A stretch of 64,000 nucleotides of DNA. Origin: Rhizophagus irregularis (Eukaryota > Glomeromycota > Glomeromycetes > Glomerales > Glomeraceae). Below the pieces are notes generated by a model. It was not told the origin of the DNA. It saw only the letters and a list, made by a program, of their open reading frames with translations, and did not search any database. Positions 3,001 to 59,605 of this stretch are shown here, piece after piece (position 1 is the first letter of the stretch; each line of letters starts with the position of its first letter). The translations under genes and the position numbers were made by a program. The stretch is from positions 1,736,001-1,800,000 of the forward strand of contig NC_089442.1 of assembly GCF_026210795.1 (NCBI RefSeq), written 5' to 3'.

Positions 3001-4148
3001 GTCCTCACCTGAAGTTATTAAGAAATCTGCATCAACTCCTTCTAAAACAATTATTGAAGCATCTTCAATTACTGAAAGAACGAACTGGTGTTTAATTAGT
3101 ATCTTCACAAATACAATAGGATTCGAGAAATTCCGGTATATTTATAATTTTTGTTAGTGTTTACAAATATTTATAATATTACAATTTAAATTTGATAAAT
3201 ATAAGAGGCAATAAAAGTTTAACTAGAATAACAAAATCAAGTTCAACAAAAGAAAAAAACAGCTAATAACCAAATTACTACTTGAAAAAATCATAAGAAA
3301 GCTAAAAAATAGAATAAGTACTTTCAGATAATAGCTGGAAAATATGAATAAAAAGAACCGTAAATCTGTAATATTCAATAAATTTTCTGGATACTTTCGG
3401 ATAATATATATTGTAAAATATCTGATAATATTCCGTTTACATTCATAGAATTTACTGAGCAATTTCGGGTAAAATCTGTAATTATCATTCCGAAAAATGA
3501 TCACTTTCCGTAGTAAAATCGGATAATAAAAATCGGAAAATTTTCGGAATACATAAACCAGATAAAAATCGGAATACATCCAAAAAAAATTTTTTATAGG
3601 GCGGCCAAGGTTGATTCTATCAATCCAGAAGAAATTAGATAACAATCCGAACACAATTTAATTTCTTTTATACTCTTTATATCCGTTCCTTGATATAACT
3701 TTCCACATAATTTACAATTTTTTTCACTTTCAATCACTTTATCTAAAGTGAATTTGCAAAAACTAGCAATAAATACATCTATTTGTTTAAAACATAAAAT
3801 TTTCACACAATTTTCACAGCATTCTTGAATACTTTGTGGTATTTTTGTCCTACTTATTTTATGTTCTTTGCATTCCAAGTCCATATATACATCCGAGTAC
3901 ATATTAATATGAGTTACATTTTTAATATAATGCGATAAACATTTTTGGCAATATTGTTGCCATTCCTGCCGCCGAATATAATGATATTGATGTCTAACAC
4001 CAAGAATCGTATCAGTATAATATTCTCCACAATAAACACATTTTTTATCTTTCCAATTAAAAGAAATAAATTTAATCGGTATAGGACTAGGTTTTAATCT
4101 TGGCGTTGGGTCAAAAGAATTTTCATCATTTGTATTTGCAATTTCCAT
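1..4148 (-). pseudogene. Broken Cys-rich TKL kinase (unit 1), runs off window start
   Basis: This is a copy of the minus-strand kinase found intact in units 2-5, inactivated twice. Exon 1 starts at 4148 with the family N-terminus (MEIANTNDENSFDPTPRLKP) and is cut after the LIESTL segment by a 2-kb insertion. It resumes at 1553 (VKKQVSILYLPWW) and ends at a GTGAAA donor near 997. In the glycine-rich loop a C run one base shorter than in unit 5 shifts the frame (near 1101-1106), turning TKGGYGIIYKA into TKGDMVLYIKQ. Exon 2 (717-916) and exon 3 (up to 644, open to the window edge) still read as kinase: HRDFHSGNIL, GDLGLS, PYIAPEIF, DIYGFGMIMWEL, KKRPTIK. The C-terminal tail lies outside the window. 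A truncated Cys-rich protein from 3594-4148 is possible, but a working kinase is not. Confidence 0.85.
1557..3601. mobile_element. 2.0-kb inverted-repeat insertion in kinase exon 1
   Basis: Unit comparison shows a clean insertion: units 2-5 read straight through where this copy is split. The ends are inverted repeats, CCCTATAAAAAATTTTT at the left and its complement ending in TATAGGG at the right, each followed by more loosely matching sequence rich in TTCCGAA/TTCGG-type motifs. The host triplet CCA is present on both sides, offset by one base on the left and three on the right, so a 3-bp target duplication is possible but imperfect. Termini resemble the small elements at 38528 and 48490. The interior (about 2150-3160) holds short open stretches separated by intron-like DNA, for example one at 2418-2540 reading EDWKDFLHLSYDTYWTYQ and a Ser/Thr-rich one at 2888-3157. 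They look like a decayed multi-exon passenger gene that I do not recognise. Confidence 0.7.
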
Positions 4149-22611: not shown

Positions 22612-22800
22612 TATGACGGGTACCCGTTATAAGAAACGGCGGGTACCTGTTATATGGAATGGCGGGTACCCGCTATAAGAAACGGCGGGTACCTGTTATA
22701 AGGAACGGCGGGTACCCGCTATAAGAAACGGCGGGTACCCGTTATAAGAAACGGCAGGTACCCGCTATAAGAAACGGCGGGTACTCGTTATAAGAACTGG
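22612..22800. repeat. GGCGGGTACCYG minisatellite, left block
   Basis: About eight tandem units of 22-23 bp, consensus GGCGGGTACCCGTTATAAGAA. Each contains the palindrome GGTACC. Strikingly GC-rich against the AT-rich background. It mirrors the block at 24440-24590 inside the same element. Confidence 0.85.
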
Positions 22801-23104
22801 CAGTCAGCATATTAACTTTTGATATCAATAATGATAATTATTTATTTAATGAAATTTTATTTGCAAATATTAAAATTTAAGTCACCCATTTACGATTTTA
22901 AAGAAAAAAATCACCATATATTTATTTTTATTTAAGTGTAAAAATAAAAGAAACAATAACAATAAATAAAAAAGATAAGTAAATTACAATGATCAAGGAG
23001 AAAGATGCTAATAAAAAAATGAAATAACAGTGGGAGTAATGGAAAGTAATAGAAGATGAAAGGTAGTAAAAAAGAGTAATGAGAAGTGATAGGAAACAAA
23101 AAGG

Positions 23105-23345
23105 AGAAATAGGACATAATGAGAGATGAAAAGGAGTGATGGGAGACGAAAAGGAGTGATGGGAGACAAAGAGGAGCGATAAGAAATAAAAAGGAGTTAT
23201 GGGAGACAAAAAGAAGATGAAGAGGAACGAAAAGAAGTGATGGGAGACGAAAAGAACGAAAAGGAGTGATGGTAGACGAAGAGGAGTGATGGAAGACGAA
23301 AAGGAGCGATGGGAGATGAAAAGAAGTGATGGGAAGATGAAGAGA
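23105..23345. repeat. GAAAAGGAGTGATGGGAGA minisatellite
   Basis: Purine-only strand of roughly 20-bp degenerate units (GAAAAGGAGTGATGGGAGAC and variants). The complementary open frames of Ser/Phe/Leu-rich composition are artefacts. A second, longer block of the same repeat lies at 52495-52850. Confidence 0.85.
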
Positions 23346-24420
23346 AGTAAAAATTTATTAAAATTGTAAATTTAATAAAAAATTTTCCAATAAATTTTCA
23401 ATCAATTTTTATAAAAAAAATTAAAAAAAAATTTCAAGCCAAAATTCTCGATACACTTATTAAAAAAAAACTATTATCAATAAAATTTTCTATTAAGATT
23501 TCTAAACAAAATTCACCATCAAAAAAATAAAAAAAATTTTCAACAAACAATTCTCTAATGAAATTCTCAATCAAAAAAAATATCCCCGATTAAAAAGATT
23601 CTTACCACCTATTAAAAAAAAATTCTCAAAGAATTTCTATATCAAAAAAAAAACTCTCCTATTAAAAAAAAAATCTTTACCGAAATTCTCTATCAAAAAA
23701 AAAGTCTCCCCTGTTAAAAAAAATTTACACTAACGAAATTATCTATCAAAAAAAAATTCTATGATGAAATTTCTATCAAAAAAAAAAAAAAATTCTCAGC
23801 GAAATTCTTTAATGAAATTCTCTATCAAAAACAATCCCCCTATTAAAAAAAAATTCTCTAATAAAATTCTCCGTCAAAAAATACTTTCACCTATTAAAAA
23901 AATTCCCAAAAGAAATTCTTTATTAAGGAAAACTCCTTCAATTAAAAAAAAATTCGTAACAAAATTCTCTATCAAAAAAAATTTCACTTGTTAAAAAATT
24001 TTCTAACGAAATTATCTATCAAAAAAAAAATCTTCTCTATTAAAAAAATTCTTCAAATAATTTTCTACAAAAAAAAAAAATCTCAAATAATTCTCTATCA
24101 AAAAAATCTCTCCTGTTAAAAAAAATTGCTCCAACAAATTAAGTATACGTCAAAAAAAAAAAAATCTTATTAAAAAAAATTCTCCAATGAAATTTCTATC
24201 AAATAAAAGTTTTTAACGAAATTATCCATCAAAAAAAAAAAACTCAGAAATGTCCCTATCAATGAAAAAAAATTTTCTAACAAAATTTTTTATCAAAAAA
24301 AATCTTCTTATTAAAAAAATTCCCAATGAAATTCTATCAAACAAAGCTTTTGCCTATATTAAAAATAAAAGTTCTCTACAAAATTTGTTTATAAAAAAAA
24401 GCCAATAAAAAAAAAAAATT
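23346..24420. repeat. AT-rich degenerate tandem tract
   Basis: About 1 kb of degenerate 30-40-bp units of the form AATTCTCTATCAAAAAAAAA followed by a short CT-rich stretch and ATTAAAAAAA. The same tract occurs at 52860-53810 and, inverted, at 50638-51545. Confidence 0.8.
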
Positions 24421-24439
24421 TTTTTTTAAAAAAAATTAA

Positions 24440-24590
24440 ATGGCAGGTACCCGATATGTAAAATGGCGGGTACCCGATATGTGAAACGGCGGGTACCCGA
24501 TATGTGAAGCGGCAGGTACCCGATATGTGAAGCGGCGGGTACCTGATATGTAGAACGGCGGGTACCTGATATTTGAAACGGCAGGTATTC
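24440..24590. repeat. GGCGGGTACCCGATATGTG minisatellite, right block
   Basis: About seven units of 22-23 bp, consensus GGCGGGTACCCGATATGTGA. The core is the same as the left block but with a different spacer (ATATGTGA instead of TTATAAGA), so the two blocks expanded independently. Confidence 0.85.
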
Positions 24591-26378
24591 GATCCCTTAA
24601 TAATTTAAAATTTGGTCCAAAATAAATTAATAAACCGTTATAATATAAAGCGCATACGCGTTAAATTATGTAGCGTATACACGTTGCTTTTTATGGCGGG
24701 TTACCCCTGAAATTGACAGGTTAACCCAACAGAACAGGGGTAACCCGCCGTGAAATATAACGTGTATACGCTATGTTTTGTAGCGTGTACACGCTATGTT
24801 TTGCTACGCACTTTTGACCACTACCGCTTGCCATAAAAGTCTGGGGTTTAAACCCCAGATCAAATCCCAGATTTATCCGGGGTGAAAATGGATTAATCCA
24901 TATTTCATCCCAGATTTTCCTATATTTCACCCCGGATTTGATCCATATTTTATCCCGGATCTGATCCACATTTTACCCCAGATTAATTCCTTAAATTTCA
25001 CCAAAAATTACATCACACCCAATTGTCAAACCCCGGATTAATCCATATTTCATCCCAGATTTAATCCATATTTTACCCCGGATTAATCCATATTTTATCC
25101 CAGATTAATCCATATTTTATCCTGGATCTGATTCCCGGATTTGATTTTATCTATATTTGATTTTATCCTGGTGATATAAATCCAACATTACGAAGTCAAT
25201 TATTGATTTTAACCAGTTAGAATTCTTGCCGATCAACCAATAAAATTAAATTCTCCTTACGCTGCTCTTTTTAAAAATTTTTTAAAAAAACCTTAATAAT
25301 TAATCTTAACTCTAGTTAGCATTATAAATTTAGCCAGAATTATGATTACTAAATATATAAATTTCAATATTATATAATTTTAACCAATCAAATTTATCAT
25401 AATTTTTATCTTATATAAGTAAAAAAATTGAGAAAATTTTTTATTTACTTTACTTAATCAATTTATTTTATTAAAAACTATTTAATGATAAAATTTTATA
25501 AAATTCTAATTATTAGATCATCATATAAAATACAAGAGATACCTATTATAGAGGTATTGCACTGAATAAATAATAAAAATAATTTATTTTAATCAGCCTG
25601 TTAATAGGTTAATAATAAATTTTTAAAAAAATCTCAAAATATTTTTCAACATATTTATTTATAAAAAATGTATGAAAATAAGTTTTTTACTTCAAATCAC
25701 CAGGTAATTATTTTCATTTAGCCAGAATTATCAATTTTTACTGGCATTATATTTTTTAATGCTGGTTGATTATCATAATTTCAGTCACCTGGTGATCATC
25801 ATCTCCAGTAATAGTTAGAAAAATTCTGAAAATAAAATTTAAAAAAATTTTTTATAATAAAGTTTCTATTTATATATAGGATGTTTAAACTTTAAATATG
25901 AATTATATATATAATTATCATAATACTAAATATTTTTTCAATAATACCAACAAATTTTCTCCCCTATATAATCTAAAAATATTTATTGTTTATATTTATC
26001 TAAAGGGCTTGGTTTTTTTTTGCCTTCTAATTATAAAATTGTTAGATAAGAGAAATAAAATAAATAATACCAAATGATTGATATGAAAATTTTCCTTTTA
26101 AAAAGTCATATAACCTTATGTATAATTTTCCAATTTTATTGGAACTAAAATTTCAATAAGTGTAATGTCAGTTCCTATAAAAATGAAAAAAAAATAATTA
26201 AAAAATTATTTTATTTTTGAAAAATATTTTTTGAAAACTTATCTAAAATTTCGGTCATATGATATAATGTGAGAATGGAATCAGCATTACAAACTTGGCA
26301 ACTTGGCTGAAATTAAGCGTAAAGGGTATGACATCTGGTAATAATTTAAAATCATGTAATCTCTATATTTAAGGATAG

Positions 26379-50637: not shown

Positions 50638-51654
50638 TTTTTATTTATTTTATTGGCTTTTTTTAATAAAACAATTTGTTTTATAGAGAATTTTTATTTT
50701 TATTATAGACAAAGGCTTTTTTATTAAAGACTTTTTTTTGATAAAAAATTTTGTTGGAGAATTTTTTTATTGATAGGGACATTTCTGTCGATAATTTCGT
50801 TAAAAAATTGAGAATTTTTTTTTTAATAAGAATTTTTTTTTGGACATACCTAATTTGTTGGAACAATTTTTTTAACAGGATTTTTTTTTTTCGGTAGAGA
50901 ATTCATTGAGAATTTTTTTTTTTGTAGAAAATTCTTTGGAGAATTTTTTTTAATAGGAAAGATTTTTTTTGATAAAAATAATTTTGTCAGAATTTTTTTA
51001 AACAAATGAGATTTTTTTTTGATAGAGAATTTCGTTAAGAATTTTTTTTTTAATAGGAGGGAGTTTTCCTTGATAAAAAATTTCTTTTGGGAATTTTTTT
51101 TAATAGGTGAAAGTATTTTTTGACGGAGAATTTATTAGAGAATTTTTTTTTTAATAGGGGGATTGTTTTTGATAGAGGATTTTATTAAAGAATTTTTCTT
51201 TAATAGGAAGATAAATAATTTCGCTGAGAATTTTTTTTTGATAGAAAGTCTTTTGAGAATTTTTTTTAATAGTAAGAATCTTTGAATTTTTTTTTTAATA
51301 GGGAAAATGTGTAGATTTTCGTTAGAAATTTTTCTTAGTCAGGGATATTTTTTTTGATTGAGAATTTCATTAGAGAATTGTTGGTTGAAAAGTTTTTTTT
51401 ATTTTTTTGATGGAGAATTTTGTTAGAAGTCTCAATAGAAAATTTTATTGAAAATAGTTTTTTTTAAATAAGGGTATCGAGAATTTTGGCTTGAAATTTT
51501 TTTTTTTTAATAAAGAATTTCATTAGAGATCTTTTTTTATAAAATTAAAAAAATATTAAATTACATTAATAAGATTAAGATAAAATTAAAAAAAAAACTA
51601 TGATAGAATCTTAAATAGCATAATAAATTAAGCAAATTCTATATATAGTAAAGC

Positions 51655-51770
51655 TCCGCATAAGCCGAGCCGGCTTGCAAGCCAAGTCATACTTAATAAA
51701 TTGGCTTGATGCTTGACAAGCCAGCTTGAAAAAGCTCGAGCTGGCTCACTTACAAAGTAATAAAATATAA
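51655..51770. repeat. Short palindromic block GCCGGCTTGCAAGCC
   Basis: A GC-rich island inside the AT-rich spacer of the palindromic element, with repeated GGCTTG/CAAGCC words in both orientations (AAGCCGAGCCGGCTTGCAAG, GACAAGCCAGCTTGAAAAAG). Able to form hairpins. A related word (CAGCTTGGCTTGCCA) occurs at 54050-54064. Confidence 0.5.
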
Positions 51771-52494
51771 ATTAATCATTAGTAATTTTTTTTTTTTTGG
51801 TTTATTTGTTTCATTTTAATAATTTTAGATTTCTAGAATTTATTTTTATGGTATTTTTTTAAAAAAATTTATCTTACTTTATTTAATAATTTTCTTTAGT
51901 TTGGTATTTTTTGATTCCATTTTTAACTTTAATTTTTAACATTTTTTTTTAATCTAATATTTTTTAATTTTATAAAAATTTTTTTACAAATTTCTTATTA
52001 TATAATCATATAATATTCATATATAACATAAATTAAAAAGTTTTTAAAATAATGTTAACTTTAAAAAAAAGTATATAGCAGAAATTTGTTTGAAGCAGTT
52101 TTCTTTTTATCATTAATAATATTAAATAATTGGCATAAAAACATTTTTTAAAAATTTTTTCATGATGTATCTAATTTTTGATTCTTTTAAAAAATTCTTT
52201 TGCAAACATATTTATTCAAAATAATCTTATTTAGTGAAATTTTTATTTGCAAATATTAAAATTTAAGTCACACATTTATGATTTTAAAGAAAAAAATCAT
52301 CATATTTATTTTTATTGAAGTGTACAAATAAAAGAAACAATAACAATAAATAAAAAAGATAAGTAAATTACAATGATCAAGGAGAAAGATGCTAATAAAA
52401 AAATGAAATAACAATGGAGTAATGGAAAGTAATAGAAGATGAAAGGGAGTAAAAAAGAGTAATGAGAAGTGATAGAAAACAAAAAGGAGAAATA

Positions 52495-52850
52495 GGACAT
52501 GATGAGAGATGAAAAGGAGTGATGGGAGACGAAAAGAAGTGATGGGAGACAAAGAGGAGTAAGAGCGACGAAGAGGAGTGATAGGAAGATTAAGAGGAGT
52601 GATGGGAGACGAAAAGAAGTGATGGGAGATAAAGAGGAGTGATAGGCGACGAAGAGGAGTGATGGGAGATAAAAAGGAGTGATGGGAGATAAAAAGGAGT
52701 GATGGGAGACGAAAAGAAGTGATGGGAAGATTAAGAGGAATGATGGGAGATGAAAAGAAGTGATAGGAAGATTAAGAGGAGTGATGGGAGACGAAAAGAA
52801 ACAATGGAAGACGAAAAGAAAAGGAGTGATGGGAAGATGAAGAGGAGTAA
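52495..52850. repeat. GAAAAGGAGTGATGGGAGA minisatellite, second block
   Basis: About 17 degenerate 18-22-bp purine-rich units, same family as 23105-23345. Some units are fused with an extra GGAAGATTAAGAGGA variant not prominent in the first block. Confidence 0.85.
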
Positions 52851-54124
52851 AAATTTATTAAAATTGTAAAATTTAATAAAAAATTTTCCAACAAATTTTC
52901 AATCAATTTTTTATAAAAAAAAGATCTCTAATGAAATTCTTTATTAAAAAAAAATTTTAAGCCAAAATTCTTGATACACTTATTAAAAAAAAACTATTTT
53001 CAATAAAATTTTCTATTAAGATTTCTAAACAAAATTCTCCATCAAAAAAATAAAAACTTTTTCAACAAACAATTCTCTAATGAAATTCTCAATCAAAAAA
53101 AATATCCTCGATTAAAGAAAAATTCAAAGATTCTTACCACCTTATTAAAAAAAAATTCTCAAAAGAATTTCTATATCAAAAAAAAATCTCCCCTGTTAAA
53201 AAAATTTACACTAACGAAATGATCTATCAAAAAAAAAAAATCTTACCTGTTTAAAAAAAATTTTATGATGAAATTTCTATAAAAAAAAAAATTCTCAGAG
53301 AAATCTATTAAAGAAAAATTCTTTAATGAAATTCTCTATCAAAACAATCCCCCTATTAAAAAAAAAATTCTCTAATAAAATTCTCCATTAAAAAATATTT
53401 TCACCTATTAAAAAAATTCCCAAAAGAATTCTTTATCAAAAAAACTCCCTCCTATTAAAAAAAATTCTCAATTAATTCTCTATCAAAAATAAAAAATCTC
53501 TTCTGTTAAAAAAAATTGTTCCAACAAATTAAATATATGTCAAAAAAAAAAATCTTATTAAAAAAAAATTCTCCAATAAAATTTCTATCAAATAAAAGTT
53601 TTTAACGAAATTATCCATCAAAAAAAAAAATCAGAAATGTCGCTATCAATGAAAAAAATTTTCTAACGAAATTTTTTATAAAAAAAATCTTATTAAAAAA
53701 ATTCCCAAAGAAATTCTTTCAAACAAAGCCTTTGCCTATATTAAAAATAAAAAATTCTCTACAAAATTTGTTTATAAAAAAAAAAGCCAATAAAAAAAAA
53801 ATTTTTTAAAACTACGCTAAACTTAGAAACATGTGACTGACAAAATATCAACCTTGTGCTGACAAAGAAACTAATTTTTGACAAAGATAAAATTATTGAG
53901 TATAGTTGGATTAAATCAAACACAGTTGGACAAAAACATCAAGCATAGACGGACAAAAATATCAAGCACAGATGGATAAAAACATAAAGCATGGACGGAT
54001 AATAATGTCAAGTATGGTCAGATAAAACCATCAAGTATGATAGTTTAGTCCAGCTTGGCTTGCCATATTCAGTCCCATGTTCTGTGGTGGGTACTGGAAC
54101 AAAAAAAAATACTGGCTAGCTAGT

Positions 54125-54330: not shown

Positions 54331-56416
54331 AGTATACTATATAAGTTTACTGTGCCCATATATGACAGGTTAACGTAACATTAACGTAACATTAACTTTT
54401 AATTAACATTTGTTAACTGCCAATTATATTAAAATAGAAAAGCTTGATATTAAATGTATTATGTAATTGGCAAACAAATGCTAAATATGAGGGATCATCA
54501 TCTTAAAAGAAAATACTCGAAACTAATCTTATGTTAAATGTAATAAATAAAAAATAATAATCACATGAAACTGTGAAACTGGCAACAATTACTGCTGGCA
54601 AAATTATTTTTTTTAAAAAAAATCTCATCCATTTTGAATTACTATAAAACAGTATGAACAGGAAAAATAAAATAAAAAATAAATTTTCTTAAAACCCATA
54701 ATAACAGTAAATTTTATGGCATTTTTGAAACAGAAAAGGTATGATAAATTACATAAAATTTTAAAAAGTTGCTTATATGCAAACTTGCTAAAGAATTTAA
54801 GTTTACTGCTCTGAAGATAATGTTTTCATGTAATTCAAAAAAGGGCGACAATTAGTTTTACCAATATTATATGTATGTGAATATTCACATATACAAGAAA
54901 TTTGATTGTTTGATTATTATGACAAAAATTATTTATTTATTGTAAACAAATAACTGATAAACAAATAAAAAAGGATAATCACATGAAATTAGTAATAGTT
55001 ACGGCTGGTAAAATTATTTTTTTTTAAATCTCATCTGCAAATTAATTATTATTTTTACCAATATTATCAGTTATATGTATGTAGATATTTACATATACAG
55101 AAAATTTGAGTTTGATTATTATTGTTTAAATAAAAATTTAGTTTTTTAAAAAATTAATTAATAATCAACTATCATTAAAAAAGAAGTTAAAAATCCATGT
55201 ATCTATTGATTCAATTCAGTATACTTATATGTAAATTTCCAATTAGATTTAAGAAGAAAAATATTTAATTGCTTTTTTATATAAAAAAGAACAGTAGTCA
55301 AATAATATTAATAAAAGAAGAAAAAAATTTAAAAAGAAAAAAATATATATTAACATTATTAATCAAAAATCAGGAATTTACAGCCTCTAGCATTATTTCT
55401 TATCCCACAATTTTTAACAAAAAAAAAAATATAAATATAAGTACCAGTTGACCGTATGGGTGGATATCCCCCAGCATTACCCACAATTTTCACCTATATA
55501 TATAAAACTTAATTTTAGCCTGAATTGTCAAGCATTTATTTATTAAAATTTGAAAATATTTTTATAATTAAACAATTCATGATTTTACCGATCAGTGGAG
55601 CAACATTTTGCTGATCACTAATTAAATTTGGAAAATTGCAGAAATTAGCCATTAGAAACACGATTTATTTATATTTGTAAAAAGGAGGTGGCTGAAATTT
55701 ACATGTGATATCATAACTACACACCTTAAATTGGAGTGCTTTTTTTTATGACTTTATTTTATTTCAAAATTTTAATAGTAAAAAGCATAGCATAGTGGAC
55801 ATGCTTTCATCACTTTGCTGATCATTCATCAATCATATAATATATCATGTCACATTAATTTTGAAGTTATGGTTAAAGCCATAAAATGCTTGGCCAAACT
55901 ATACTAATGTTTTTTTTAGCAGTTTATGAAAAATAAAAAAAATTATATTGTCAAAGTTAACCTTAAACCAAAATTTTCAATAATTAGATAACTGTTTAAA
56001 GAATTTTTTTGATAAATTTAATATGCAGTAAATTTAAATGAATGTTAAACTGTCTATAAAATTATTATTATATAGGATTTTCAACCAAAAGCGGAGTGAT
56101 AAAATTAAATAAATGATTGACAAATGATTGACAAAATTGTGACAAAGTAAAAATGAATGATAATCATTTCATTGGTGCTTAATAATTACCTAAGATGAAA
56201 TGATTAATCAGTTACTGCGATTTTGTAATAATTGATCTACATTCCAGTTTGTTTGTCATATATGCAATGATGCAATACTTGTACTTGTGATCAACGCTTT
56301 TGCACATAATGTATTTTGCATAAATATTATTACCATATTTATTCATACTAATAAAGGCGCTCAATAATAAAAAAAAAAAGAAAAGAAATAAAAATATTTA
56401 CTTTATCCTTTTCCAG
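54331..56416. other. AT-rich region upstream of the plus-strand kinase
   Basis: No convincing gene. It holds two similar blocks, about 54540-54640 and 54960-55040, sharing AAATAAAAAAxATAATCACATGAAA, an internal duplication. The 60-71-codon frames are composition artefacts. Presumably contains the promoter and any 5' exon of the following gene. Confidence 0.4.
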
Positions 56417-59400
56417 TTGGGAAGAATTTGAGAATTTTGATATAGTAATGGACCAATGTATTAAAGGTAGCTGAAATATTTTTTTATTTATAAACAATTC
56501 ATGTTTAATATTTTACATAATTCAACTAATTATATTCTTAATTTAAATAACTAGATTGTAAGTAATATATATAATTTACAGTAAATGCCTTTATATTATC
56601 TTTATATTTAACTAATTAATAATTAATAATACTACAGGGTGTAAGTTATATGATATCTATATTTGCATTATTTATATAATTTAAACTAACTAATTTCTTT
56701 ATTTAAAAAATTATTTCATAGATGGTAAGTTATTTATTTAATTCTATTATTACCTATTGTTATAATATTTACATATAATTTAAACTAACTAATTTCTTTA
56801 TTTAAAAAATTATTTCATAGATGGTAAGTTATTTATTTAATTCTATTATTACCTATTGTTATAATATTTACATATAATTTAAACTAACTAATTTCTTTAT
56901 TTAAAAAATTATTTCATAGATGGTAAGTTATTTATTTAATTCTATTATTACTTATTGTTATAATATTTACATATAATTTAAACTATCTAATTTCTTTATT
57001 TAAAAAATTATTTTGTAATTTATTTAGTTGGTAAGTCATAAGTTGTTTATTTAATTCTATTATTACTTATTGTTATAATATTTACATATAATTTAAACTA
57101 TCTAATTTCTTTATTTATTTAATAGATCGTAAGTTATAAATTATGTATTTAATTCTATTATTACTTATTGTTATAATATTTACATATAATTTAAACTATC
57201 TAATTTCTTTATTTATTTAATAGATCGTAAGTTATAAATTATGTATTTAATTCTATTATTACTTATTGTTATAATATTTACATATAATTTAAACTATCTA
57301 ATTTCTTTATTTATTTAATAGATCGTAAGTTATAAATTATGTATTTAATTCTATTATTACTTATTGTTATAATATTTACATATAATTTAAACTATCTAAT
57401 TTCTTTATTTATTTAATAGATCGTAAGTTATAAATTATGTATTTAATTCTATTATTACTTATTGTTATAATATTTACATATAATTTAAACTATCTAATTT
57501 CTTTATTTATTTAATAGATCGTAAGTTATAAATTATGTATTTAATTCTATTATTACTTATTGTTATAATATTTACATATAATTTAAACTATCTAATTTCT
57601 TTATTTAAAAAATTATTTTGTAATTTATTTAGTTGGTAAGTCATAAGTTGTTTATTTAATTCTATTATTACTTATTGTTATAATATTTACATATAATTTA
57701 AACTATCTAATTTCTTTATTTAAAAAATTATTTTGTAATTTATTTAGTTGGTAAGTCATAAGTTGTTTATTTAATTCTATTATTACTTATTGTTATAATA
57801 TTTACATATAATTTAAACTATCTAATTTCTTTATTTAAAAAATTATTATGATCTAGCTTGTAAGTATCTCTATTGTTATATATTTATATAATATTTATTT
57901 GTTAATTGAATTCTTTTATTTAAAAAATTATCTGTTACTTTAGTTGGTAAGTTGTAAATTATGGGTTATTATGTATTTATCCAAAAACTAAGACTTATAT
58001 TACATTAAATTCCTATTTAAATTTTAGAGTAAGTAATAATTTATTTTAGTGTAAATTATAATACAATCTATAATATAATTTTAATTATATAAATTTATAG
58101 ATTTGGGAAAAGTGGAAATACAATTATAGATGATTTTATTCTTGAAAAAAAATTAAGATGGATTCCTTATAACAAATTTAAAAATGTTGAATATCTTGAT
58201 GAGGGAGGATTTGGTACTATATACAAAGCTATTTGGTTAAAGAATAATGGAGATGAAAAAGAAGTAATTCTTAAATGTCCCAAGAATTTAAATGAAAATT
58301 TAAATGAATTTTTGAAAGAAGTATGATAGATTGATAGTATATTATTTTTTTATTTTTATAATTTATATTAATTAATTATTATTAATTTTTGTAGTGGAAC
58401 TATCATAAGAATTGTTTAAATTCATCATATGATATTATAAATTTTTATGGATTTACAAAAGATCCAAAAATTTCAAAATATGCGGTAGTAATGGCTTATG
58501 CAAATAATGGTAATTTAAGAGAAAATTTAACAAGAATAGTCAAAAATAATTGGAATCAAAAATTATATATGTTGTACAGAATTATTACTGGACTAAATGA
58601 TATACATGAAAAAAATCTTATTCATTGTGATTTTCATGATGGTAATATTTTAAATCATGATGAGAATATAATTTGTATTAGTGATTTAGGATTATGTCAA
58701 CCTGTAAAATCGTTTTTGAAAAAGTATGATATTTATGGTGTTATACCATTTATGGCTCCTGAAGTTTTAAGAGGCAAATCTTATACTCCAGCTAGTGATA
58801 TATATAGTTTTTCTATGATTATGTGGGAACTTACATCTGGAGTACCACCATTTAATAATAGAGCACATGACATTCAACTTAGTTTAAGTATTTGTAAATA
58901 TGGTGAACGTCCTGAAATTATTGAAAATACTCCACAATGTTATGTAAATTTGATGAAAAAATGTTGGAATGAAGATCCATTAAAAAGACCATCTGCTAAA
59001 GAAGTATTAAAAATTATTAAGAATTGGATTTTCCGTCCTGATGATGATGAAGTCAATGATGAATTAAAAAGCAACATTATGGAATTTATAAATGCACCAA
59101 TTGGGCAGTATAACAATTTTGTTACTCAATCTCATCCTAAAGCATGTTATACAAGTCGCTTACTTAATTTTACTAGTAAAAAATTGAATGAAATTATTGA
59201 AAGTGAAGATTCACAAGCTAGTATAGAAGCAAATGAAATGCTAGTAAGTGAAGATTTGAATGATTATATAATTAAGGATTTGGGGTCATTAGGTATGTAT
59301 TATGATATATAAAAAATTAATCTTGCAAATTATTTATGTGAAATTAATTTTATTTAATATTTAATCATTAAAACAGATGAAAATAATAGTAAAAAGTTGA

Positions 59401-59605
59401 ATGAAATTGAAGATTCACAAGCTAGTATAAAAGCAAATGAAATGCTAGTAAGTGAAGATTTGAATGATTATATAATTAAGAATTTGGGGTCATTAGGTAT
59501 GTATTATGATATAAAAAAGAATTAATGAATTAATCTTGCAAATTATTTATGTGAAATTAATTTTATTTAATATTTAATTTAGATATTAAAACAGATGAAA
59601 ATTAA
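56417..59605 (+). CDS. TKL-type protein kinase with microexon array, HCD catalytic loop
   Basis: Exons: 56417-56466 (after TTTTCCAG; reads WEEFENFDIVMDQCIK, with a possible ATG at 56448; the true 5' end is not defined), 15 candidate 3-nt exons and one 1-nt exon (56555-58028), then 58101-58320, 58395-59292, 59377-59496 and 59595-59605. All phases agree. FGKSGNTIIDDFI and LRWIPYNKFKNVEYL precede GGFGTIYKA; the ATP-site Lys is in VILKCPKN. The catalytic loop is HCDFHDGNIL (Arg of HRD replaced by Cys, so a non-RD type), followed by SDLGLCQ, FMAPEVLRG, DIYSFSMIMWEL and LKRPSAKEV. No Cys-rich module is present. The tail ends in a duplicated exon. Without the microexons the frame between the first exon and 58101 fails unless the 1-nt exon is used. 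Confidence 0.75.
56555..58034 (+). repeat. Array of intron/3-nt-exon units, mostly 98-115 bp period
   Basis: Fifteen times the sequence shows AG, exactly three bases, then GTAAGT. Triplets start at 56555 ATT, 56638 GGT, 56722, 56821 and 56920 ATG, 57028 TTG, 57126, 57224, 57322, 57420 and 57518 ATC, 57633 and 57748 TTG, 57857 CTT, 57944 TTG. A last unit has one base (A at 58028). Five ATC units are spaced exactly 98 bp. Each unit contains a branch-point-like CTAAC/CTAAT about 30 nt before the AG and a T-rich tract. Units at both edges have diverged almost completely yet keep the AG-N3-GTAAGT core. Confidence 0.85.
59180..59605 (+). repeat. Tandem duplication of the last coding exon and intron
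   Basis: Two copies of about 205 bp. Each encodes EDSQASI(E/K)ANEMLVSEDL then NDYIIK(D/N)LGSLG, followed by donor GTATGT, intron, and acceptor AAAACAG|ATGAAAA. The 120-nt exon at 59377-59496 is phase 1 to phase 1, so the duplication keeps frame. The last acceptor leads to Asp-Glu-Asn-stop. Confidence 0.8.

Follow-up and report, generated by a model that had tools for sequence, protein, structure and literature searches.

The window, that is, the whole 64,000-nt stretch of Rhizophagus irregularis DNA that was analysed, very probably carries a row of 15 in-frame, constitutive exons of 3 nt each, followed by a 1-nt exon and then a protein-kinase domain, all joined in order in the predicted message. 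The features on which this reading is built are given below in window coordinates; a slash marks the point at which two exons would meet.

56448..56466, plus strand: upstream exon, coding part (ATG GAC CAA TGT ATT AAA G), with donor GTAGCT, ending in phase 1
56467..57946, plus strand: array of 15 three-nucleotide exons as AG-N3-GTAAGT, an intron of 80-112 nt before each
Between 56466 and 58101, plus strand: predicted triplet string of the array, ATTGGTATGATGATGTTGATCATCATCATCATCTTGTTGCTTTTG + A, from the joined exons
56555..56557, plus strand: exon ATT; the preceding G with this exon gives Asp, and this exon with the next gives Trp (T/GG)
56638..56640, plus strand: exon GGT, an edge unit (T/GG = Trp)
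57126..57520, plus strand: core of near-identical 98-bp units, exon ATC at 57126, 57224, 57322, 57420 and 57518
57857..57859, plus strand: exon CTT, 3' edge unit, an AG-N3-GTAAGT match
57944..57946, plus strand: exon TTG, last 3-nt exon, an AG-N3-GTAAGT match
58028..58028, plus strand: single-nucleotide exon A, between TTTTAG and GTAAGT (AG at 58026-58027), which restores the kinase frame
58101..58320, plus strand: first kinase-domain exon (FGKSGNTIIDDF...NEFLKE), placed by the frame join and by genome matches
58395..59312, plus strand: second kinase exon, up to the stop codon (Pfam PK_Tyr_Ser-Thr, PF07714, E=1.4e-34)

The window array and its predicted product

The exact pattern AG-N3-GTAAGT occurs 15 times at window 56553-57952, always on the plus strand and with a unit-to-unit spacing of 83-115 nt; 0.82 matches are expected and none of 100 shuffles reached 15, so the number and spacing of units reported in the preliminary description of this DNA stand. 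The triplets are ATT, GGT, ATG (three times), TTG (four times), ATC (five times) and CTT, the same differing identities that were listed there. The further statement that a CTAAY site precedes each AG is correct for 14 of the 17 introns and fails for the last three. Within the array the 98-bp units are head-to-tail copies with 99% matches and the 115-bp units with 98%, and the edge units are diverged; the core 98-bp units read as a recent tandem duplication. A search of window 55800-59400 against Rfam for structured RNA gave no match.

Placing the 15 triplets and then the single A between the upstream exon (ATG..AAAG) and the two kinase exons yields one open frame of 400 residues up to the stop codon. 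The product reads MDQCIK-DWYDDVDHHHHLVAFE-FGKSGN..., and the residues proposed earlier between DQCIK and FGKSGN are thereby reproduced exactly. The single A is needed, as had also been proposed: without it the frame meets a stop eight codons past the junction codon. It is also conserved, being present in 39 of 40 sampled paralogues. Among the 20 sampled arrays with a fetched 3' end (L011, whose 3' end was not fetched, is outside this count), the 1-nt exon was found in all 20, as A in 19 and as G in L008; among 20 further paralogues it was found in 19. Genome-wide, the pattern of a 1-nt exon followed by the kinase exon has 75 matches, compared with none in the reversed control. The window 1-nt exon thus shows, across paralogues, the two properties by which a single-nucleotide exon is recognized, that is, it is needed for the frame and it is conserved in homologues.

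The unit before the 1-nt exon is nearly as regular. In the 20 arrays that were read to the 3' end, the last triplet is TTG in 15 and TTA in four (19/20), with CTT before it in 13; in the further paralogues it is TTG in 15 of 20. Because the last triplet is followed by A/A, a triplet ending in T would create TAA, so TTG or TTA is needed at this position to avoid that stop. A few loci depart from the pattern. L004 is ambiguous, with inserted DNA between the last unit seen (CTT) and two candidate 1-nt exons. L030 (near position 830; C5:4988158-4989270) has a 3-nt spacer, TGA, where the 1-nt exon is expected and a stop in its kinase exon, and is probably a dead copy. L023, L024 and L025 keep the 1-nt exon, yet have a stop inside the kinase exon; L019 has the 1-nt exon and no 3-nt unit in the ~800 nt before it.

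A retrocopy that could serve as a natural cDNA was considered and rejected: the joined FEFGKSGN DNA gave two one-mismatch hits genome-wide compared with one in the reversed control; of the two, the one inspected, C17:245730, is not a kinase, and the other lies at C2:3538483.

Several other features of the window were recorded. At the 3' end of the kinase gene, a 204-bp duplication (window 59198-59578, 92% matches) repeats the stretch ...EDSQAS..ANEMLVSEDLNDYII.... Clusters of short tandem repeats lie at 22617-24687 and 50883-53514, with units that contain GGTACC (23 bp), units of about 20 bp (GATGGGAGACGAAAAGGAG) and units of about 50 bp (AAATTCTC), some of them alike between the two places. 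On the minus strand, five related frames at 3596, 10130, 18120, 32399 and 44615 start near EI(V/A/I)..NDENSFDPTPRLK.SPIPIKFISF; lying beside kinase-like frames, they read as a local cluster of related genes.

Spacing and junction codons in related kinase arrays

Sequences matching the window kinase exon occur at least 151 times across the genome. From the match lists, rather than from all 151, we sampled 21 kinase arrays (the window array, L003-L012 and L033-L042), which answers the earlier proposal to look for AG-N3-GTAAGT arrays in paralogues: they contain 755 units, 15 to 81 per array, and the donor is GTAAGT in 667 of the 755. A CTRAY branch-like site precedes 569 of 754 units (one unit, too close to the start of L041, was omitted), compared with 33 in the reversed control.

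The distance between acceptor and donor in these arrays is almost invariant. For 660 of the 686 GTAAGT sites the nearest YAG is exactly 3 nt upstream, and nine more are 1-nt exons; the remaining spacers are 6 nt (four sites), 2 nt (two), 0, 4 and 46 nt (one each), and eight sites have no YAG within 60 nt. The introns vary freely: their lengths take 55 values between 61 and 122 nt (mean 94.9, n=680) and are spread over the three remainders modulo 3 (238/236/206).

This spacing bears on the simplest alternative, that is, that the array is a non-coding minisatellite lying in one long intron that is removed in one step, its splice-like motifs being by-products of intron duplication. The core units are indeed near-identical tandem copies, and part of their conservation is inherited through duplication. 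Neutral copies, however, are not expected to hold 3-nt spacers while their introns vary freely, nor to avoid stops at the junctions of neighbors alone (see below), and removal of 56467 to 58100 in one step breaks the kinase frame. The core of the window array consists of head-to-tail near-identical units, as a minisatellite does, but the lack of coding constraint that would also be expected of one is not found in the kinase arrays. With the spacing test and the stop test together ruling out a plain minisatellite, we regard this as the least probable of the explanations considered, and a highly unlikely one.

If the triplets are exons, those of the kinase arrays would be joined in phase 1, so that each junction codon takes one base from the end of an exon and two from the start of the exon that follows. 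Stops are almost absent from these junctions: one was found among 680 in the 21 arrays, whereas permuting the triplets within each array gave 18.0 (sd 3.4) and none of 2000 shuffles was as low. All three stop codons are rarer than expected (TAG 1 vs 10.4, TAA 0 vs 5.3, TGA 0 vs 2.3). Measured by z-score, the one codon with a stronger shortage is GGG (20 vs 38.2 expected), and stop avoidance does not explain it; GAT (77 vs 59.9), TTT (51 vs 36.2) and TGG (47 vs 31.1) are commoner than expected. In phase 2, the neighbor junctions of the same arrays contain 116 stops compared with 99.9 expected. Of the residues predicted at the 680 junctions, Asp, Arg, Asn, Phe, Trp and Tyr are the most frequent, and Cys and Met occur once each.

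The depletion is confined to immediate neighbors. Across one intervening unit stops occur at 15 of 610 joins (16.5 expected), across two at 15 of 548 (15.0), across three at 19 of 494 (13.8), across four at 16 of 447 (12.8) and across five at 11 of 406 (11.7). Because the arrays are related, the 680 junctions are not independent; when only distinct pair types are counted, one stop remains vs 16.9 expected, which is a partial control for block duplication. The same contrast appears genome-wide, where adjacent units give T/AGN twice and AGN after A, C or G 311 times, although about 64 of these 313 would be expected after T from the base shares of the arrays; across one intervening unit T..AGN occurs 48 times, even though the pattern is stricter.

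Candidate sites within 55 nt of a site with a better donor were dropped from this test, as were 54 of 734 consecutive pairs lying more than 135 nt apart, because the latter probably span a unit that has lost its donor; the gaps of this size that were inspected hold units with weak, altered or lost donors, or inserted DNA, and one such gap in L011 would add an apparent stop. The sole stop among the 680 junctions is ATT/AGA in L038 (C6), which is also one of the two T/AGN exceptions genome-wide. L033:5045-5700 has spacers of 2, 2 and 4 nt in one array that together shift the frame. They are possibly compensating frame changes, and the frame would be restored if the first (AGAG before GTAAGT) were skipped or spliced at its second AG.

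Avoidance of stops solely between immediate neighbors implies that selection sees the fully included product, with the units in order. This result speaks against a second alternative, that is, a combinatorial menu in which the symmetric triplets are independently included or skipped to give isoforms that differ by single residues, as the preliminary description had suggested. Skipping any triplet does keep the frame, and in the window array skips among the triplets make no stop, the last TTG excepted; in addition, the MEG genes of Schistosoma diversify their proteins by alternative splicing, according to passages of PMC10526429. Frequent skipping would, however, require stops to be avoided at lags 2 and 3 as well, and with one to five units left out their frequency is close to that of the shuffles, which argues against frequent skipping. 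The near-uniform donors also speak against a menu, as does loss of the last TTG in the window, which puts CTT, ATT or GGT before A and creates TAA. The claim that any number of units may be skipped is therefore right for frame length and wrong for this last unit, and the expectation of many single-residue isoforms is not borne out. A skippable menu as the main mode is ruled out by the lag test, and we judge a menu of any kind unlikely; the triplets are most likely constitutive single-codon exons, a reading drawn from the DNA sequence.

A third alternative is that the units form a recursive-splicing ladder that serves removal of a long intron, with the triplets as passengers carried into the mRNA. 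Each AG-N3-GTAAGT would indeed regenerate a strong donor after the upstream join. YAG directly before GTAAGT, however, is nearly absent (1 of 686 sites). The edge triplets are also conserved, unlike passengers: an ATT-GGT or ATT-GGC pair stands close to the 5' end in 17 of the 20 arrays for which that end was retrieved (all but L041), and TTG or TTA is last in 19 of 20, as described above. Finally, it is the arrays themselves that make the gap long; we infer that if they were taken away, a short intron of the usual kind would be left. We consider passenger triplets very unlikely and retain constitutive single-codon exons as the explanation for the arrays.

Genome-wide extent and other gene classes

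The preliminary description treated the array as a feature of a single gene; the genome as a whole shows otherwise. Adjacent unit pairs (AG-Nk-GTAAGT, 66-96 nt, AG-Nk-GTAAGT) number 3689 for a spacer of k=3, compared with 55 in the reversed control. The other spacers give few pairs: 25 for k=4 (control 12), five for k=2 (control 27) and 18 for k=6 (control 22). As the sampled arrays average 19.9 pairs each (418 pairs in 21 arrays, some of them incomplete), 3689 pairs would correspond, as a rough estimate, to ~185 arrays in the genome. The T..AGN matches at C11:881936-891316 are spaced at intervals of 2.1-2.4 kb, which hints that a very long array there contains duplicated blocks of a higher order.

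Units of this kind also occur outside this kinase family. The regions L001 and L002 (C1:1721001-1735500) contain 68 units of other sequence before an AIG1-type GTPase gene:

C1:1723676-1731510 (L001:2675-10000 and L002:1-440): 68-unit array of the AIG1 gene, 3-nt units of a different sequence family

The large exon of this gene has a Pfam match to AIG1 (1.7e-17), and its translation looks like a long coiled coil. Here the junctions are free of stops in phase 2 (0/63, 2.25 expected), whereas phase 1 has five (3.65 expected) and phase 0 has three TGA triplets; by reading, the phase 2 join to the downstream exon needs a GTTAGT donor. In L043 (C17), 17 units precede a CxxC-type kinase (L043:3752-5540, about C17:3901250-3903040), with one stop, at the first junction, in the phase of the downstream exon. 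The unit sequences of L043 and of the AIG1-type gene (L001) look alike by eye, which would suggest that units move between unrelated genes.

A further locus, L044 (C13:247000-253000, minus strand), has consecutive exon-like spacers of 3, 6, 9, 12 and 21 nt. Eighteen exons picked by hand, a selection that left out a 4-nt candidate and everything upstream and in which gaps of ~200 nt may hide exons, are open in just one of three frames over 45 codons; L044 is perhaps a mixed-length microexon gene.

Proposed splicing and comparison with known systems

The explanation that we propose for the kinase arrays is as follows. Each unit would be a complete short intron (GTAAGT ... CTAAY ... AG; 80-112 nt in the window) together with one triplet, so that the array writes a protein stretch of variable length, one residue per intron, and the 1-nt exon would set the phase in which the kinase exon is read. 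Arrays would become longer or shorter as complete intron+triplet units are duplicated, and the protein would therefore change by whole residues and without frameshift. The segment encoded by the array is most simply read as a linker of variable length that connects the N-terminus with the kinase domain.

We infer from the same sequences that the triplets are present in the mRNA and that splicing is sequential and recursive-like. Two spliceosomes could hardly flank 3 nt at once, and exon definition would not work on an exon of this length, which points to individually defined introns that leave in sequence, starting at the 5' side; every such step would re-create a 5' splice site (exon + N3 + GTAAGT) for the next. 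Too short an exon is believed to impede recognition by neighboring spliceosomes (passages of PMC4674806).

Taken together, we favor, with more reserve than for the window array itself, a wider proposal: R. irregularis would use one-residue-per-exon coding, in which constitutive 3-nt exons number in the thousands, with 15 to more than 80 in a single gene, and are spread over two phases and at least three gene classes; a processive 5'-to-3' splicing ladder would use each triplet as both exon and ratchet, and copy number would set the length of the kinase linker. If this is correct, tandem repeat dynamics act directly on protein length in single-residue steps, and genes with dozens of consecutive 3-nt exons would represent a naturally occurring extreme of exon recognition. 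The arrays would then allow one to ask how the spliceosome handles a 3-nt or 1-nt exon, whether the order of removal is fixed and how fidelity is maintained over 20 to 80 consecutive steps. If the triplets are exons, the N-termini of many members of this large kinase family are likely mis-annotated.

A full-text literature search (best-ranked matches in one open-licence library) found no rows of 3-nt exons; it turned up single 1-nt exons, isolated fungal microexons and the schistosome MEG genes. The word microexon is absent from the portions consulted of the main text of the assembly paper (PMC10234402).

Single-nucleotide exons are the closest counterparts of the exon that ends the array. For the 1-nt exon of Arabidopsis APC11, a model that combines intron definition with recursive splicing has been proposed (passages of PMC4674806); the plant VPS55 1-nt exon has a conserved GTRAGT donor, which matches the strong donors at the R. 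irregularis units (passages of PMC8831610); and Fusarium CYP621A has a single-nucleotide exon (passages of PMC12940212). All three resemble the R. irregularis case in that an ultra-short exon is required for the frame. As those passages describe them, however, they are isolated single exons with RNA evidence, whereas the R. irregularis 1-nt exon, predicted from DNA, ends a series of 3-nt exons and does so in dozens of paralogues.

The ratchet points of recursive splicing are zero-length exons. They resemble the R. irregularis units in that an acceptor lies beside a strong donor and the join can be respliced, but the units would leave 3 nt in the predicted message at each step, with steps of ~95 nt; none of the 15 window units has YAG directly before GTAAGT, the arrangement that is also nearly absent from the 21 arrays (1/686). 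In Drosophila and vertebrates, ratchet points sit in very long introns (passages of PMC13149111). Within the filamentous fungi, Xlr2 of Trichoderma has a functional microexon (PMC11121469); it is one regulated exon, whereas R. irregularis has an array.

The nearest known relatives in overall design are the MEG genes. In Schistosoma mansoni these comprise 35 genes for secreted proteins, with 10-20 exons that are mostly 15 bp (range given as 3-81 bp in one place and 6-81 bp in another) and introns of 0.1-5 kb, and their short exons are difficult for annotation pipelines (passages of PMC10526429). Both systems have many consecutive short exons with lengths that are mostly multiples of three, and such a run of very short exons is found in the 21 kinase arrays; the typical 15 bp exons and 0.1-5 kb introns are not. 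Instead, the R. irregularis units are nearly all 3 nt, with introns of ~95 nt and 15 to more than 80 units per gene; they lie upstream of kinase domains and multiply as an intron and its triplet are duplicated together in tandem. The R. irregularis arrays extend micro-exon genes to an extreme that the described cases found in the literature search do not approach.
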